NCBI GenBank assembly: GCA_025765595.1
Contig: JAIVFH010000025.1
Span: 248,001-312,000 of the forward strand
Direction: 5' to 3'
DNA length: 64,000 nt
DNA from: Obelidium mucronatum
Taxonomy: Eukaryota; Chytridiomycota; Chytridiomycetes; Chytridiales; Chytriomycetaceae
Part shown: piece by piece, positions 16,529 through 27,289 of the stretch
Position numbering within the stretch: the stretch's first letter is position 1
Layout of the letters: each line of letters begins with the position of its first letter
The notes under the pieces: model-generated
Databases searched by the model: none
What the model was told of the DNA's origin: nothing
Seen by the model: the letters and a program-made list of their open reading frames with translations, nothing else
Made by a program: the position numbers and the translations under genes

Positions 16529-18317
16529 ATGGACAACATTGCTTCAGCTGGTTCCTGGGATAACATACAACTGTCACCTCGGATGTAAGCATACAGACGG
16601 ACTCATTATGGGCTTCTTTTGTAATACTCTGTATAGGAGAGATGCCGTGGCTCTGGCGGGGTTCTCTGACATGACGCCAGTCCAGGCATCCACGATCCCG
16701 CTGTTCCTGGCTTACAAAGACGTTGTAGTTGAAGTACGTTTCATCTTTTTGAATTGTGATCGCAGATTCAAACTTTGAATCAATCTAACCGGGCAACTTG
16801 AATTAGGCTGTCACTGGGTCAGGAAAAACGCTGGCTTTCGTGATTCCAATTCTGGAAATGCTACTCCGAAGAGAGGAACAGTGGCAAAAGAACGAAATTG
16901 GAGCCGTTATTATTAGCCCAACGAGAGAACTTGCCAAACAGATTTCCGATGTTGTCTCTACTTTCCTCAAGTTTCTCACTGATGGACTACCGGATTCCGC
17001 TGGGGACGAAGAAACTACCACTACGCAATACAATCATCGTTTAGTGCATCAGATGTTCATTGGAGGAACAAGCGTTAACCAGGACATTCAGGCATTTAAA
17101 TCAAAGGGTGGGAATATCCTTATTGGAACGCCTGGACGACTGGAAGATCTTTTGACAACACGAAGCATTCTTTTTAATACAAAGAATTTACAAGTTCTTG
17201 TCCTTGACGAAGCCGATCGGTTACTTGAATTTGAAAGTTCAGTCAATGCGATTCTCCTGAGACTTCCAAAACAACGTCGAACAGGGCTTTTCAGTGCCAC
17301 CATGAGTGAAGCGCTAGATGGAATCGTTCGTGCAGGTCTCAGAAATCCAGTGAAGGTTGCTGTGAAGGTGGAAACAGTCAGAGCCCACAACGCTGCTGCT
17401 TCCTCGGGAGATCACCAGTTGACTCCCAGTACCTTGTCTATTGGTTATACACTTGTGGAGCCGCATCAGAAGCTGGAGCAGTTGTTGGCGCATGTGAAGG
17501 AACATCCAAATGCAAAAACGATTGTGTACTTTGCTACTTGCGCCATTGTTGACTATTTGTACACTGCCTTGACGTTTGATCGCGCTGATGAAAGTGACGG
17601 AGTGAGCAGCAGTGGCAAGAAAAAGAAGGGAAAGGGAAGAACTCCAAAGAAGCTACCAGGATTTAACGAGTACCTGGATGGAATTCAAGTTTTTTCATTG
17701 CACGGCAAGATGAATCCAAAAAGAAGAGAAGGTCTGTCCTCATGAGTCGATTGATGTGTCCAACGACTAATTTTTTTTTTGTATCAACAGCTGTGTATGA
17801 AAAGTTTACATCTTGTTCAGACCCTTGTATTCTCCTCACTACGGATGTATCTTCCCGAGGACTCGATATCCCCGACGTTGATTGGGTAATACAATTCGAT
17901 CCTCCTCAAGACCCAAAGTCCTTCAGCCATCGCTGCGGTCGTACAGCCCGAGCAGGGCGAGTTGGAAGTGCCGTCGTTTATCTCACAGCTCCCGAAGAAA
18001 CCTACGTCGAGTTTCTCCAAATTCGAAAGATCCCAATGTCTCCATTCCCAGCACTCCCATTCCCTCAACCAGCCGAGCCACTCTTGACAACGCTTCGCGC
18101 ACAAAACAAAAGCGACAAAGACATTTTCGACAAGAGTATCAAGGCTTTTACGTCCTATATTCGATCGTATACAGAACATCAAGCCAGTTCCATCTTTCGA
18201 ATCCGAAGTGTCAACTTTGCTTCTTTGGCTCAAAGTTTTGGAATTTTGCGGATGCCGAAAGTTCCTGAATTAAAAACTGTTAAAGTTGTTGGTTTTGTAG
18301 AGGAGAAAGTGAATGTG

Positions 18318-18360
<43 letters not shown>

Positions 18361-18816
18361 TCGCACGCCGTTGGTTTTTAACCACAACCACACAAAACAA
18401 AGCCTGCAACGATTCCATTCAAGAATCCACAGCGTGAAAAACAGCGGCTTGATAATTTGGCGAAAGCTGCTGCTGCGACTGAAGAAGAAGCGGCAAAAGC
18501 AGCTGCAAAGAAAAAGAAGTTGCACGCCAAGGAAACAGTTCCTTGGTCGCAGAAGGTGGCTGCCAAAGAGCGGCGCGACGAAAGACGCGTGAAAAAGATC
18601 CGCAAGAAGGAAGCAATTGGACGAGTGAAGGCAGAGGAAGAAGCAAAGAAGGCGGATGCTGAGACAAGCAGCACCGTTCCTGGACTCAAACGAAAGGAAC
18701 GCGATGATGATGGTGATGATGCTGATGGAAATGATGCAGACGATTGGAAAGAGTTTAAGAGGGAGGCTAAGGAGAAAAAGGCCAAGAAAGGAGGAGTGTT
18801 CAGCAATGACGAATAG
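16529..18816 (+). CDS. SPB4: DEAD-box RNA helicase Spb4/DDX55
   Basis: Exons 16529-16584, 16637-16733, 16807-17731, 17791-18314 and 18403-18816 give 671 residues. All helicase motifs are readable: Q motif [19 protein letters not shown], Ia PTRELAKQ, Ib [50 protein letters not shown]. The C-terminal RNA-binding extension contains [18 protein letters not shown] and ends in a Lys/Asp-rich tail, as in Spb4. It acts in nucleolar 60S assembly. The last intron contains a run of 37 T. There is a Gly/Ser/Lys insert in the second RecA domain (about 17600-17640). Only 30 nt separate its stop from the next start. Confidence 0.95.
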
Positions 18817-18846: not shown

Positions 18847-20157
18847 ATGCGATCCAGATTCGATCCAATATTGAGAGTCCGAGCATTCTCAGCATTGAGT
18901 GGAATTACCAGGAATGGTCTGCTTCAAAATGCCAGAGGTACTCCCGTGCGGGGGTGTTCATGGATCACTGGCAGCAGGTTGCACTCAGCCACCAGAGCTC
19001 CACTGGCTGCGACCTTACAAGCAACCAAACGACAACTACCCTGCTACGGCATACTCGCGCGCTCATCGCGAATGCTCACATCTTCTGCAGAGAGCGAGGT
19101 GTGTGTTTCTGTCTAGAGTGCTGTAAATTAACACGCTTCGAAGGCCTTCACCGAGACGGCCGTGTCCTTCCCGTCGGCGGATGGATTTGTCATCCACGGA
19201 ACGTTCACGGCGCCGGGCGCAGGCGGCGGCACCAGCACGCCGCTTGTTGTGATTGTGCAGGGGTCGGGCACGCTGGACCGCGACGGAAACGCGGCGCCAA
19301 TCAGGCTCGACATGTACTCGCGGCTGGCGCACTTTCTGGCGTCGATCGGCGTCGCGTCCGTGCGCTACGACAAGCGCGGCACCCACGCGTCGGCGGCGCC
19401 GCCGGGCGGACGCGCGGACGCGTTTCTGGCCGCGGGCATCGACGATCTGGCCGCGGACGCCGCGGCGGCGGTGAGCTTCGGCGCCGCGCGCGCCGGCGTC
19501 GACCGCGCGCGGGTCTTCGTCGCCGGCCACTCCGAAGGCGCCATTCTGATGGGCCGCATCTGCAAAACTGTGGCGAGAAACTACCCCGCCCTGCCGCCGC
19601 TGAAGGGCGTCATGATCGTGTGCGGATTCGGCGAAACTCTGAAAATGGCCGTCGACCACCAATTCGAACAAATCGTCACAAGCATTGACCGCCACGGCTC
19701 TTTCTTCCAGCGCAAGTTCGTCAAGCCACTGCTTTCACTGTGCGGACTCGACTCGTCAGCGTTCCTGACCAACTTTGTGTTGGACGAGAAGAACAAGGAC
19801 AAGGATGTTACAACTTTCTGGTTTAGACCGTTTCCATTGCGTTGGTTTCGCGAGCATTATCAACTAGACTTGGTTGAAGAAGGAAAAGAGATTCGTTGCC
19901 CTGCTCTCGTAATTGGTGGAGGGAAGGACTTTCAACTCGATGCCAAGTACTGTACGAGGGAAATGACGGACGCGTTGTTGGTGAATTCGCCTCGTGTTGA
20001 AATTGCAGTCATTCCAAAAATGACGCATATTCTTCGAGATACTGATGCTGGAGATGTCAGCATTTGGGAAGCGCAGGAACAGTACAAGGTACAAGGACGA
20101 GAGCCCTTGTCCCAGGAATTAATGGAAGTGATGAAACGTTTTGTGTTACATCCTTGA
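18847..20157 (+). CDS. Mitochondrial alpha/beta hydrolase (S33-like)
   Basis: Exons 18847-19098 and 19144-20157 give 421 residues. Exon 1 encodes 84 residues rich in Arg, Ser and Ala with few acidic residues, starting MRSRFDPILRVRAFSALSGI, a likely mitochondrial presequence. Exon 2 is an alpha/beta hydrolase: oxyanion region VIVQGSGTLDRDG, strand VASVRYDKRGTH, nucleophile elbow VAGHSEGA (Ser about 214), and probable acid and base near GGGKDFQLD and KMTHILRD. It resembles bacterial S33-type hydrolases more than typical fungal lipases. The substrate is unknown. The part around the active site is very GC-rich, unlike the rest. Confidence 0.8.
19190..19570 (+). other. GC-rich coding block (alpha/beta hydrolase)
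   Basis: A continuous GC-rich coding stretch with GCG/GAC/CGC codons that ends abruptly near the AAAACTGTGGCG after the nucleophile elbow, where A/T-ending codons return. Confidence 0.75.
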
Positions 20158-20287: not shown

Positions 20288-21102
20288 ATGCCGGGATCAG
20301 AGAATATCAAGGCAACGATACAAATTGAAGGCGATGTTCTTGATGTAGAGGATGATGTCGAAGACGGCGAAGAGGAAGATCAGGATATGACTTGGTCGGA
20401 GTGGGCTCAGATTATCTTCTATTCCCTTGCTCCAATCGTAACAATTTGTGTGGCGTCATCTCTGCTATTCATCTTTGTGGACGAATCAAAACAAACTATA
20501 CTGGCAAGCCAGAATACAGCTGGGCATCTGACGCTTGGAGGAGGCGGATCGAATCTGGCAGCAACCACTGTATGGCGGTGGATGGCTCTGTTTAAAGGAT
20601 CCGTCAAGCAAAACGAATACTCTGTTGATCTCAACTATCAGTCTATTGGAAACAAGAAAGGATTAATGAATCTTTTCTCCGAGCAAACTCTGTTTGCTCT
20701 ATCAGAAGGAATACCCCTAATTTCCACGTTCGCGAACAATAACACGAGCAACAATACTCTGCACCATGGAACAATAATACTTCCAGTTATAGCCGGGGCT
20801 CTTTCTATCGTCTATAACATCCCTGGAATAACTGCCAAGGATCCGCCTTTGGTATTTGATGGGGTTACCTTGGGAGCAATATTCAGCGGCGAGATCATAT
20901 GGTGGAACGATACGCGAATTCAATCTATAAATCCTGCATTGGAGTTGCCCCACGAGTTAATATCACCCATTGTAACGAATGATCCAACGGATATTTTCCC
21001 AACCTACCTGTCGCCCTATAACGCAAAAATCAACGCGTCCAATGGATTTACTTGGCCAAATAATTTTATCCGAGGAAATACAGCTTTTGAGTTGATGTAG
21101 TA

Positions 21103-21139
<37 letters not shown>

Positions 21140-22922
21140 TGGGTTGATTGCTGACATCAAACGAAAATTAAAAGCATCTCCGGAATCGTCTTTAATTCGA
21201 TTGCCTACACTCCAATCGAAGCTGTTTTGCAAAGCGGAAATGCTGGCCGTAGTCCCACCCTCGCTGGTATCATCAACAAGAGAGGCGAAGTTGTTTTCCC
21301 AGCCGTTGAAACCGTCAATGCCGCAATGAGAAGCTCCTTCAATCCAGATGTCTCTGAATATATGTCTATAACGGATTCAAACGCAACAGGGGCCTATCCG
21401 CTGTCATTTCTTTCTTTTGCCTTGATTCGTCAAAGCTATTATCCAAACACACATGGAGATGAAATGGATTGTTTACGCGTGAAACTTTTGGTGGAGATGT
21501 TGTATTTTTCATTGGTTAACTCCACAGCGATACAAAGTATGATTGAGAGTGGTTGGAATCCTACATCAAACGAAATGGTGCGCAATACGTTAAGTCGGCT
21601 GTCCACAGTGACTTGTAACGGTCAAAATATAATGAACCAACTCGAACACGACTTCCAAAAGAACTTGTTTTATACCCACGGTAAAGAAATGTTGACCTTT
21701 GGAAGCCCGACTTGTTTTTTTCCCGATTTTTTGTCAACAAATACTAATGCGCAATGCCTTCAGTTGACTACGAGTGGGAAACCTCCGTTTCATTTTGGGC
21801 CAACTTGGGTTCTATATCAGTAACTCGTCTGGGAACTGCCGCATATCTTACATTCTACAGTCTCCTGATCTTGTCGAATGCGATTCCCTTTGCCATGAAT
21901 ATGCGAAGTCTTGACAGCGACGACAGAAAGAGTCATTCTGATAAGAACCACCTTGTGAAAGTAAAATGGACATTACAAAATTGGCTGGGAGTTGTGACCC
22001 AATGTTTCACCTGCTTTCAAATTGTTTATCTCAGCTTGAATCGCTCGAATGTGATTCAAGAGAATATCTATGTAGAAGTCGTTTCATACATTGGTCTGAT
22101 ATTTGATTGGTTCTGGTATTACATTGTGGTCAATGTCCTAGTTCTTGTATGGATTGTTTGCATGTATTACACAACGTTTCTGTATGGATTCTTGGAGTTT
22201 TATTTCCCTGAAAAGTTGAATCGCTTGACAAAGCTTCACATGTTCTTGGCGGATTTTATGCCAAACTTTGCTTTGATATTCTATAATCCAAGTGTGGAAC
22301 TTCTCGCAAAAGTGTTTGATTGTCGCATGTCGCCCCACACTTTTGAGTACAAAAACAGCTATGACATCAAATGCTGGCAAGGAGTCCATTGGATTATGAT
22401 TGTTTTCAGCATATCTCTCAGTTGCGCATTCACAAACTGCGTTGTGAGATACTGCAAGATTTTAAAGATGCTTCGAAAGGACTTTAGTTTCAAGGATAAG
22501 GACTGGAGCATTTATTTGGAATCCATTTCGAAAACTGTGATTATCATTCTATACTTTAATACGTCCAACAAGTATTTCTTGCCTTGCAATGTTGTCATGA
22601 TGGCGTGTCTGTGCTGTTGTTCCTTGTTTGGACAGCCAAACTATGTATTGTGGTTTGATCGCATTAGAGGCTTTCTGTACGCATACTGTGGAGGCGTTTG
22701 TTTTATTCTTTTTATTTTTGAATTTGTTGTTCAAGAGGAAGAGTTTGCAAGACGGAGTGACATTAGCAAAATTCTATCGCCTGTTATTTTGGGGACAACT
22801 CTTGTGGCTTGCTTTGCTGTCTACAGTTATTCAATGATGCAATTTAAGGCTGGGTTGTCGGATTCTGATAGACGGAAACAGGATGCTGAGCTTAAAAAGT
22901 TTTTTGCCGCATTTGGGTTGGG

Positions 22923-22976
<54 letters not shown>

Positions 22977-24831
22977 GTTTCCACTCTGTTTTGACTGACA
23001 CACACTAACACAAATTATAGAGATGAAATTGAAAGTGCATCGAACCTAGACCTGGCAGACATTCCAGAAGAAGAACCATTGAAAAACGGTCAAGGCAAAA
23101 AATCGCCAGTAATCGTCTCCTCTCAAGTTGTAATAAGCAGACATCGAAGTGTGAATATAGACCATGATACAGCAGGATCGAGGCCCATATCAGGAAATCA
23201 AATGGGATCTTCTTTGATGGTTCGAAATGATTCAAAGCGAAAGTCTGGTCATTTACTTCCAGAGCCATATATTCCTGGAAGTCATAATGATTTGGACCAG
23301 GATTTTGATGCGCTTATGGCACTTCATGAACCGATTAATTTTGGACCTCCTACTTTAATCACTGAGTTTTCGGCGGTATGTAGGGAGAGAGTTTGGAGCC
23401 GTTTTTCTTTTTCGTTGGATGCTAATGAAATGCTTAGGCACAATGGCAAAAATTGGATCAATTTGTAAGCAAAGCGTTTGAGCTTGGTTTGCTTGATTCG
23501 CATGAAATGGAGGCCATCAAGGTGGCCATTACCCACGAAGGTAAATTTGTGACTTTTTTTTTTTGGTCAAGGGAGGGGACACTGTTCGCTGATGCATTTC
23601 GTCAGATCCAATTATTCCAATTCTCTTTGGAAGATACAATAAGAATCTCCAAAAACTTACTGAAGTCCTCAAAGCAAAAGTGTGGCAAGTATTGATTGCT
23701 CAAAACGTGCACCGTCAAAAATCAGAAAAATCTTCGAAAGCGCTCAGTACTGCAAGAGTCAGTGTTCTTTCTCAGAGAAGTGCAGGTGGAAGGGATTCGG
23801 AAACACGAAGGGAGTCCCAATCAATTCGTACTAGACGACGATCAAACCAATCGACTAGATCTCGACCATTGACAGGAACTGACTTCCAAGGATTCAACGT
23901 TAATACATTCCAAGATGATTTAATCAGTATGGAAATCCGAGAAGAGAATGTCCCATCGGTTTCGCCGTCTAGACGCGGGTCAAAGGCAATTGAAACGAAA
24001 ACTCCAGCATCTAAATCCCGACCAATCTCGCAGCTTAGTCATTTGAAAGATTCGAGGCCTCCTTCTCACTTACCTGAAACAAAGAATGTCGACGATTCCG
24101 CTCACGCTGGATCCATTAGGACGTCGATAAACACGCGGTCTCGACCCATGTCAACAGCCTTTGAGAAAGCTGTGGAAGTTGAGCTAGAATCAGCACCACA
24201 AAGTCGGGCTGGCAGTCGTCCAACAAGTGCCATATTCCCAAGTCACACAATCCGAATCGAGCCTCCAACACCAAGGGATAGTTTTGCGCTACAAGCCCAT
24301 CAAAGACCAGTTTTAAATTCTAATTTGTTGAATACCTCAACAAGTTCCAGTGTTGGAATGATAAGAATTGTCGAAGAGGATATCAAACCTCAACCAATGA
24401 TAACTTTCACTCCTGGAACTCCAAGAACTCCCAAGATCTCACGAATTTCATCCCAAAACGTACACAAATCCGAAAGCTCGGTTTGCACCACAACTCAGGC
24501 TGAACCTATGAATGAAAAGCCAGGTGCTGGAATGTTACGTGCCTCATCTTTGAAGGAAGAGGATAGAAACACTCCATGTCTCTCGAATACTGCCACGTCT
24601 GAAATTGTTGCTCCTTTGGTAGTTTCCAAAACACCTCCAAGCTCACCCTTGACTCAATCCGTGCCCCCACCGCCAAAGCAACAAGCCGCCCACCATCTCA
24701 CGATTGATGTGGCATCTACTGCTACAACAAGCAACATTCGACCGCCCACGTCCCCTGTTTCTCCAAAGCCTCAGTTTAATAGGGCTTCCAAGGTGTCGCC
24801 AAATCTTGATCGTAAAAAATCTTTTCAATAA
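20288..24831 (+). CDS. PstS-like binding domain fused to a multi-pass membrane domain (receptor-like)
   Basis: Exons 20288-21099, 21175-21773, 21821-22916, 23021-23375, 23438-23540 and 23606-24831 give 1396 residues. An acidic cytosolic N-terminus (1-40) is followed by a membrane helix (about 42-64). A type II periplasmic-binding-protein region of the PstS kind (about 75-470) shows IPGITAKDPPLVFDGVTLGA, IFSGEIIWWND and the later SIAYTPIEAV strand. Seven to nine membrane helices follow (about 472-830), with a CWQGVHW motif before one. The long Ser/Arg/Pro-rich tail (about 835-1396) has repeated SRP motifs and many possible phosphosites. Family knowledge suggests phosphate or another oxyanion as ligand; I cannot verify the ligand residues. 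A receptor is more likely than a transporter because of the tail. The junction 21773/21821 was chosen because it alone restores the frame with a GT..AG pair; the donor at 22917 (GTTGGG) is weak. Confidence 0.78.
22928..22975 (+). repeat. Poly-T tract of 48 nt in an intron
   Basis: Lies between the weak donor and the TATAG acceptor of the fourth exon of the receptor-like gene. Other long runs: T at 18323-18359 and 21105-21137; A at 15004-15032, 39892-39953 (62 nt), about 58830-58870; T at 63612-63654. Confidence 0.95.
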
Positions 24832-24921: not shown

Positions 24922-25590
24922 TTAACGCCTATTCTTTCTTGGTTTTAAACCTTCTTCCTTATCTCTCACATCCATCTTTCTGAACAACTCCGTTGCGCGT
25001 GTGTCGTAATATTCCTGAAACTCTTCCCTCGATAGTTCAAGAAGCATGGGAACGACAAACTCCTCCTCCTCTGCCAAATGGAGCCTCAAAAAAGAATCAT
25101 AGTCTGCCATAGCTGATTCTAATAGAGTACCCGCTGCGATGAGAGAGTCAGATCCATATTGTTGGGGACTGTTTTCAAAGTTCAGGTAACGGTGGAATGC
25201 GGCCAAAACCAAGTCTCTTTTCTCATGCATCTCTTGGTGCTCTTGCTTTAAGTACCTTGTGTCCACATCCCATCTTCGACAAAGAAACGGATACAACTTT
25301 GATTCTTCGTAAGCTTCATGTGAACCCATGGAAGTGTGCCAACTTCTAAAGTGGGAAAGAAGGGATCGTGGAGAATCCCCGCTCTGCGTCTTGAAAGAAT
25401 CGTGATCCAGTGAGCGAATCCCTTCCAAGATGTCGGCTGATGCTTTGCGAAAGCGCTTGTGTCCTTGTATTAATAAGATGTTGTTGGTGTAGTTTTTATG
25501 GGAGGCCCACAGTTCTCTTGGAATCTGCAAGTGTTTTGGAAGAGCTGCAATCAATGCACGGTGTGTCTCTGTGGTTTGTACTTTGGACAT
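24922..25590 (-). CDS. Hemerythrin-like (HHE) protein
   Basis: Single exon, 222 residues. An HHE cation-binding four-helix protein: His/Glu ligand candidates occur in SWHTSMGSHEAYEESKLYPF, KQEHQEMHEKRD and LHLAEEEEFVVPMLLEL, spaced as in the di-iron hemerythrin family. Fungal members are tied to nitrosative or oxidative stress and iron, but the role here is unknown. No signal peptide, so probably cytosolic. It is one of very few intronless genes in the window. Its 3' end faces the receptor-like gene, with 90 nt between stops. Confidence 0.88.
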   Translation of the reverse strand: MSKVQTTETHRALIAALPKHLQIPRELWASHKNYTNNILLIQGHKRFRKASADILEGIRSLDHDSFKTQSGDSPRSLLSHFRSWHTSMGSHEAYEESKLYPFLCRRWDVDTRYLKQEHQEMHEKRDLVLAAFHRYLNFENSPQQYGSDSLIAAGTLLESAMADYDSFLRLHLAEEEEFVVPMLLELSREEFQEYYDTRATELFRKMDVRDKEEGLKPRKNRR

Positions 25591-25797: not shown

Positions 25798-27289
25798 ATG
25801 AAACGTCACAGTGACTTTGACCACCCAACTTCAAAGGTTGCGAACATCCAACAAGCAGCTCTCAAAACAATTACAGTGTCTCCAATCGCTCGGCTCCAAC
25901 GAAAAGCAGCAGCTTTTAGACAGCCCAAAGAAGTTGCCTGCTTCTCGTACACTCCATCAAGAGAACTTTGTGTGAATGACTTGAGCGCACTTAAATACTA
26001 CCATCCTATGAAGCTAGACGGGTCATCGAACGACTTGTCTTCTGGCTTTGGTGATAGGTACTTGTCTTTGACTGTATAAAGTGAACCAAAACATGAGTAT
26101 GAAGTGAACCAAAACAAACACACGAACGTCCAGGTATATTGCCCGGGAAAGCGCGATAGAAAACCTGGATTCGATGCTGGAAGCGCTAAAAATTGAGCCA
26201 GAAACCGAGAGTGATCCAGCTGGAAGCTTATTAACTTCTGGAGACCGAGGCGATGGAAGACCGCGATTCTGCACATGTAAGGGGGGAGGGAGCGTTGAGC
26301 TGCTTGAAAGTTATTGACGCCACCTCAAAAAAAAAAAAGGGCGAGGAATCATAACAAAAATCATGTGCGCTCCCTACACTACAGACACGTGGGAACTTCG
26401 CGCAACTCTGCACAAGGGAACGCTTTATATTATGGAAGACCCACACACCTCTCGCCCGACATCGTCATTCAACGAAAGTGCTCGTGGAAAAATGATGACA
26501 TATTGGGGATACCGATTCGAAGGACTATCTACCATTGACCATGATCCACGTTATCTGGATCCAGAGGATCTAATTCAACAAGAACAAGAGAGAGTTCAAT
26601 ATGGGGTTGTGGATACACATGTTCAGTTTTGCAGCATTGTGAAAACAAGAGTTGGCGCGCATGATGTCTTTATGGGTGCCGAAGTCGACTGCTTAATGCC
26701 CCCAACTGATGATGCTTCCAAGAATCATAATCAAACTTCTTTACCTTCGCCTCTGTCTTCAGATGTTCGGCAATCTTTATATGCTGAACTCAAAACCAAC
26801 CGAGTCCTCTCAAATCACAACCACACCGCGTCTTTCCACAAGAATAAGCTTCTTAAAACATATTTCCAGTGCTTTTTGGCCGGAATTCCGAAGGTTGTTG
26901 TGGGATTCCGTGATGATCATGGATATGTGGAGAGTTTGAAAGTGTTCAAGACGTTGGAGATTCCACGAATGGTGAGGGAGACAGCCGCTGCAAAAGGAGA
27001 GACATCATGGGATCCTGTAGTTTGTATTAATTGGGCAGACGAAGTGTTGTCTGTACTTTGGAAGACTTTGAGTAAGGCTAACGCCGAGTTGGTGAAAGGG
27101 CAGAATGGGAACACCGACCCTGTAAATACAAACGATGTCGTGTATAGAATCAAAATGAAATGCAATGGGGATAGTCGGGATAAGGGTAGAAATGATGGCC
27201 GGGCACAGCTGCCACTTGTAAATGAAGGAGGTGCAATAGAGATATTTCCTGGCATTGTTGATCCATCTATCGCATTTGTTCCTACATGA
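25798..27289 (+). CDS. RAI1: RNA 5'-end decapping/quality-control enzyme Rai1/DXO
   Basis: Exons 25798-26057, 26134-26276 and 26340-27289 give 450 residues. Family motifs: TWRGIITKIM at the exon 2/3 join, GKMMTYWGYRFEGL, MGAEVDC and AELKTNR (metal-binding Glu residues), and GIPKVVVGFRDDHGY followed by WDPVVCINWADE. Rai1/DXO removes incomplete or NAD caps and supports the Rat1/Xrn2 exonuclease in the nucleus. The N-terminus SPIARLQRKAAAFRQPKEVA is the usual start of the fold. The acceptor after the A12 run at 26339 was chosen because it gives TWRG. Confidence 0.93.

Follow-up and report, generated by a model that had tools for sequence, protein, structure and literature searches.

The gene on the + strand at positions 20288..24831 of the window (the whole stretch of DNA analysed here, 64 kb in length) codes for a protein in which a PstS-type binding domain continues into a multi-pass membrane domain in which no class C similarity was detected. 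On balance, this protein is likely to be a cell-surface sensor that would pass the closure of its binding clamp to a long tail. The features of the gene, hereafter the window gene, are as follows:

20288..24831, + strand: whole coding gene, six exons, 1384 residues; ATG at 20288, stop ending at 24831
20288..21099, + strand: exon 1, residues 1-271; acidic head, anchor and first part of the PstS domain
20408..20485, + strand: hydrophobic anchor, approximately residues 41-66
20513..21680, + strand: PstS-type ectodomain, approximately residues 76-439, containing intron 1
21100..21174, + strand: intron 1
21175..21680, + strand: exon 2; second part of the PstS domain
21681..21763, + strand: intron 2
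21764..22916, + strand: exon 3; membrane domain
21835-22836, + strand: hydrophobic segments S1-S9, within residues 464-797, inside exon 3
22917..23020, + strand: intron 3
23021..23375, + strand: exon 4; proximal tail
23367..23691, + strand: family-conserved tail segment, approximately residues 940-1005 (DPIIPILF onward), containing introns 4 and 5
23376..23437, + strand: intron 4
23438..23540, + strand: exon 5
23541..23605, + strand: intron 5
23606..24831, + strand: exon 6; most of the S/T/P/R-rich distal tail with SRP and R..S sites, and the stop

All five introns are of the GT..AG type and 62-104 bases long, the splice sites being based on the reading frame, the GT..AG ends and the agreement with the paralogue L025. 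The frame and the introns hold, confirming the succession of binding domain, multi-pass part and tail that a preliminary description had observed here. The protein consists, in order, of the acidic head, the anchor, the ectodomain, the membrane part and a tail of 554 residues (831-1384); the anchor precedes the PstS domain in the paralogues, too. The tail, originally described as about 560 residues rich in SRP-type sites, contains six SRP motifs versus 0.46 expected and 15 R..S motifs versus 5.44 expected, neither number being reached in any of 5000 shuffles. The R..S sites suit basophilic kinases. It should be mentioned that long T tracts are present within introns 1 and 3 (~21105-21137 and ~22930-22975). 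The neighbours in the 64-kb window are the end of an SPB4-like helicase (17742-18434), an alpha/beta hydrolase (19162-20154), a hemerythrin-domain protein (24925-25590) and a RAI1-like nuclease (26363-27286), none of these four being linked to the receptor gene.

Concerning the ectodomain, it runs uninterrupted over residues 76-439, not split by membrane segments, and matches PstS from the PDB with an E-value of 6.8e-16 and the TIGR00975 model with an E-value of 2e-30, the latter at 106 bits against a cut-off of 205. With PF12849, the window protein scored 19.4 bits, under the cut-off of 27. The predicted structure of the ectodomain exhibits a PstS-type, type II fold; the model was built with 35 PstS sequences picked as relatives from the 80 prokaryotic rows (the best 80 of 554), so that it does not count as evidence separate from the sequence, and 25 of its residues were read from an intron. 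No match to PF01094 (ANF_receptor), i.e. the type I clamp, was found in the window protein, the PstS type II fold being present instead. The sequence matches and the structural model, the fold prediction having been proposed as a check beforehand, agree with the PstS-like type II binding domain of the preliminary description, and judging from both of them, the ectodomain has a type II binding fold of the PstS type and is kin to PstS.

In the genome of 48.3 Mb (694 contigs), PF12849 has 17 exon matches, all 17 located in loci of two receptor-like gene types. The first type covers nine genes—the window gene, L025, L027, L028a, L028b, L029, L031, L032 and L033—leaving out the near-identical L026, L030, L034 and L035 as well as the contig-end fragment L036. 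The second type, combining the PstS domain with 7tm_3, covers five genes—L037, L038, L039, L040 and L045—with L041-L044 left out of the count. The L038 gene contains both PF12849 and 7tm_3 in one frame of 666 residues (43.9 and 60.2 bits, both over the Pfam cut-off). When the membrane pieces were used as queries in the same genome, no copy was found beyond the loci of these two types, and the conserved tail segment (~940-1005) was likewise found, in the same genome, only there. In the tree of 54 rows, which took every second (i.e. 40) of the 80 prokaryotic sequences (the best 80 of 554), each of the two ectodomain groups forms one clade (100/100), and the window protein is placed together with L025 (99/90); a single origin of both groups could not be rejected (p-AU 0.314), long branches limiting the tree.

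Between the window gene and L025, the identity is 64% in the membrane part and 41% in the ectodomain, with dN values of 0.27 and 0.63, respectively, the synonymous sites being saturated, hence no dN/dS is given. The better conservation of the membrane part is as expected of a fixed transducer under a changing sensor. In three near-identical pairs, synonymous changes exceed the replacement ones (pS/pN of 0.015/0.004, 0.055/0.006 and 0.104/0.003). Pairs with about 93-99% identity over kilobases are L025/L026, L027/L030, L031/L034 and L032/L035, and further L037/L041, L038/L042, L039/L043 and L040/L044; the members of a pair are located on different contigs or at a great distance from each other, as would result from the separate assembly of two haplotypes. 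It is also worth mentioning that L046 (C28, ~277400-279200), a further class C-like gene, is found upstream of two window-type genes at a distance of a few kb.

With regard to the possible ligand, the PstS from E. coli (1pbp, 2abh) is soluble, works with an ABC importer and contacts phosphate through eight residues, listed as T10, F11, S38, D56, R135, S139, G140 and T141 (PMC10846223), whereas the membrane-fused window protein has N, L, N, E, T, gap, gap and P in the corresponding positions, keeping none of the eight. Among the 80 prokaryotic PstS sequences (the best 80 of 554, chosen by other motifs and not by the phosphate site), S38, D56, R135 and G140 are present in all 80, S139 and T141 in 78, and F11 in 72, while position 10 is occupied by T in 47 and by S in 30. 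The nearest paralogue, L025, keeps T10, S38, D56 and S139, with L in position 135 and S in positions 140 and 141; L027 keeps S38, D56, R135, G140 and T141; and S38, D56, R135, S139 and G140 are kept, with S in position 141, in L028a, L028b, L029, L031, L032 and L033, the cells for T10 and F11 of L031-L033 being unreliable due to an exon border falling there. All five PstS + 7tm_3 genes keep F11, D56, R135, S139 and G140, position 38 being S in four and T in one. Given this graded retention of the site, phosphate sensing seems reasonable for six of the nine window-type genes and for all five PstS + 7tm_3 genes, and doubtful for the window gene, for which it had been suggested at the outset as one possibility beside another nutrient; since none of the contact residues is kept, the window protein probably senses something other than phosphate. 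The permease family PF00528 (PstC/PstA type) has no match in the genome, whereas the same profile matches all 14 control genomes; this leaves the genome without the permease that a bacterial-type PstS importer would need.

As far as the membrane part is concerned, the window protein gave no Pfam match over the cut-off, hence no transporter, channel or 7tm_3 (PF00003) family, and among the ten paralogue frames, only PF12849 was found over the cut-off, in two of the ten. A row for DUF3742 (window protein), as well as those for Rnf-Nqr, ERMP1-TM, RR_TM4-6 and others (membrane frames of the paralogues), were all under their cut-offs; the former was taken as chance, as were the latter, unrepeated between frames. 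A profile of the ten membrane pieces matched no PDB chain at E-values up to 10. The fungal TRP family PF06011 had no match in the genome, but its control matched nowhere either, which makes this result uninformative. For a membrane domain that belongs to none of the GPCR families, a channel or a carrier function is conceivable.

Hydropathy indicated eight stretches hydrophobic in all nine genes and one more (S4) in five of the nine, the threshold being loose and passed also by 15 of 67 ectodomain stretches. The most basic loops are those after S1 and after S5, with about 7 K+R each, followed by the start of the tail with 6.1. With the ectodomain taken as outside, S1, S2, S3 and S5 as crossing, and the loop counts drawn from an enumeration by charge, an inside position of both basic loops and the tail start would require that S4 crosses, too, and that S6 and S7 behave alike, both crossing or both not. 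This constraint leads to a predicted layout with the N-terminal anchor and nine further segments, or seven and a re-entrant hairpin, the tail being inside; the hydrophobic stretches S6 and S7 adjoin, separated by hardly any loop. The charge-only enumeration itself ranks the five-crossing models highest (the best seven-crossing one consisting of S1-S3 and S6-S9) and, favouring fewer crossings by construction, it was used only to see which loops may face the interior. Folding the membrane exon from its single sequence gave a pLDDT of 41, and the model was not used.

It is rather unlikely, albeit worth considering, that the window protein represents a carrier, i.e. a binding protein that carries its own permease and serves solute uptake, with no receptor role. 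The bacterial PstS proteins serve uptake, and a domain of about nine segments, as predicted here, is a common carrier size; on the other hand, neither a Pfam transporter family—a match to which had been named as refuting the receptor proposal—nor the PF00528 permease nor any PDB chain was matched, and the 554-residue tail with its enriched R..S and SRP sites, together with the family-specific tail segment, suits signalling better.

A strongly diverged class C GPCR, with the 7tm_3 seven-helix domain changed past recognition and still working through G-proteins, is unlikely as well. Such an origin would be in agreement with the five genes of the same genome that pair the PstS ectodomain with a recognisable 7tm_3, with the shared origin of the two ectodomain groups not being rejected, and with the abundance of G-alpha genes. 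It should be pointed out, however, that a class C profile built from 21 PF00003 hits of the same genome matches all five PstS + 7tm_3 genes and none of the nine window-type genes, and that the profile-profile comparison of the window family with class C resulted in only 0.2% (E 0.26), similar to 0.3% with the reversed class C, the window-family profile comprising 12 rows (Neff 2.4) with the near-identical L030, L034 and L035 among them. The membrane part of the PstS + 7tm_3 genes, by contrast, reached 98.8% (E 4.2e-17, Neff 1.8), and even a single sequence of that type 97.4%, while two halves of the window family compared with each other gave 100%; the membrane part of L038 matches mGluR5 in the PDB with an E-value of 1.8e-4. 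Nor do the segments add up to a simple seven. The HMM searches with PstS and GPCR profiles, which had been recommended, thus revealed the kinship to PstS and no class C match, so that a class C membership is not retained for the window protein; on the data in hand, its membrane part appears to be without detectable class C similarity, a remote kinship being possible.

Still less probable seems to be the reading as a ligand-gated ion channel whose pore would be formed by S6-S7 as a re-entrant hairpin, in remote analogy to the ionotropic glutamate receptors. The latter receptors carry a type II clamp, as found here, and S6 and S7 adjoin almost loop-free, one charge-consistent topology leaving both of them non-crossing; the clamp of the window protein is, however, not split by membrane segments, and no Pfam channel family was found over the cut-off.

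With the spliced window protein as a query, L025 and L026, which were counted as one gene because they are 99.1% identical over 7.8 kb, each give one single-frame match over residues 26-976, and their frame stays open for 883 residues, through the anchor, the ectodomain and the membrane part, up to the FFAAF stretch near residue 823. An artefact in which the frame had joined two adjacent genes is hardly credible: the five introns of the window gene were placed by inference, but the L025 frame continues across both parts, which, moreover, keep their order and strand at the other family loci. The binding and membrane domains are accordingly joined on one polypeptide, as originally described.

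The preferred reading is thus that of a sensor, for which it was also counted that the true 7tm_3 receptors of the same genome bear PstS ectodomains. A ligand would close the PstS-like clamp, predicted to be held by the membrane at both ends; the closure would shift the anchor against S1; and the membrane domain would relay the shift to the long, predicted cytosolic tail, which may be regulated by phosphorylation at the R..S sites. The copies keeping the phosphate site may sense phosphate or a similar oxyanion, and the window copy may have switched its ligand or act as a non-binding partner in a heteromer. In animals, GABA-B2 is such a non-binding heteromer partner. A bolder reading, which we hold only tentatively, is that of a new eukaryotic sensor superfamily, in which a PstS clamp tethered at both ends would drive a nine-pass transducer unrelated to GPCRs, in parallel to the PstS + 7tm_3 receptors of the same fungus, the clamp having left phosphate and the transducer having remained fixed.

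With regard to the known systems, the animal class C GPCRs (mGluR, GABA-B) share with the window protein the plan of an outside clamp, a membrane transducer and a tail, but they possess a type I clamp and a 7tm_3 bundle, whereas the window protein has a type II clamp, no detectable 7tm_3, an extra N-terminal anchor and probably more than seven hydrophobic segments. A receptor from Spizellomyces punctatus, SPPG_06488, listed in 2012 as PBP_like_2 + 7tm_3 (PMC3251606), is a zoosporic-fungus receptor of the multi-pass kind that likewise bears a type II domain (PF12849); compared by its description, it belongs among the Glutamate-family (7tm_3) receptors, in contrast to the window gene without detectable 7tm_3. 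About half of the class C receptors of gut fungi were described in 2016 as having type II domains (PMC5168858), the extracellular type II domain on a membrane receptor being the common feature; according to that description, theirs are sugar-binding-like domains with a class C part, whereas the window gene combines a PstS-type domain with an unclassified part. The idea of a design parallel to class C stands as to the type II clamp on a membrane part, but it is not new for fungi (PMC3251606, PMC5168858). The five PstS + 7tm_3 genes resemble the window gene in having the PstS-type ectodomain ahead of a multi-pass domain, and differ from it in the recognisable 7tm_3 and the core of the phosphate site being kept. 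L037 and L038 (the latter on C471, at ~345-380 of the open frame) contain, in addition, a Cys-rich, EGF-like stretch that separates the PstS domain from 7tm_3 and may correspond to the Cys-rich linker of the animal receptors.

In the open-licence literature, no account was found of a PstS-type domain attached to a membrane part other than class C, and the accessible parts of PMC12842992 and PMC13308352, where fungal GPCRs are classed by Pfam domain, do not mention a PstS-membrane design. The new elements are a membrane family that fits no known class, the occurrence of both designs within a single genome and the graded erosion of the phosphate site. Receptors with a bacterial binding protein mounted on a transducer in the membrane are usually treated as a single subject, that of the class C GPCRs; here, one genome has the same PstS clamp on two engines that show no detectable likeness to one another, class C and the unclassified one. 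This opens three questions to testing: whether the clamp serves as a portable input module, what function the unclassified transducer has and by which means zoosporic fungi might perceive external phosphate or related ions. The series of nine genes, in which the phosphate site ranges from mostly retained to fully lost, represents a natural experiment in ligand switching.

As for the host, the genome contains six matches to radial spoke and 57 to chitin synthase, a family matching also four of the 14 bacterial and archaeal controls; on the basis of both, the host is likely to be a flagellated fungus, in line with the zoosporic fungus proposed previously. Of the original interpretation, the PstS type II fold, the single polypeptide and the flagellated fungus are supported; phosphate as the ligand of this gene is not, nor is a class C membership. 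There are 147 exon matches to G-alpha, which is far above the usual in fungi, and at least 150 scored matches to class C (PF00003), i.e. a very large class C receptor set; receptor signalling is therefore a major theme in this genome. Two G-alpha genes in opposite orientation are found on C25 (314215-315630 and 316368-317756), just beyond the end of the 64-kb window and approximately 41 kb from the window gene.
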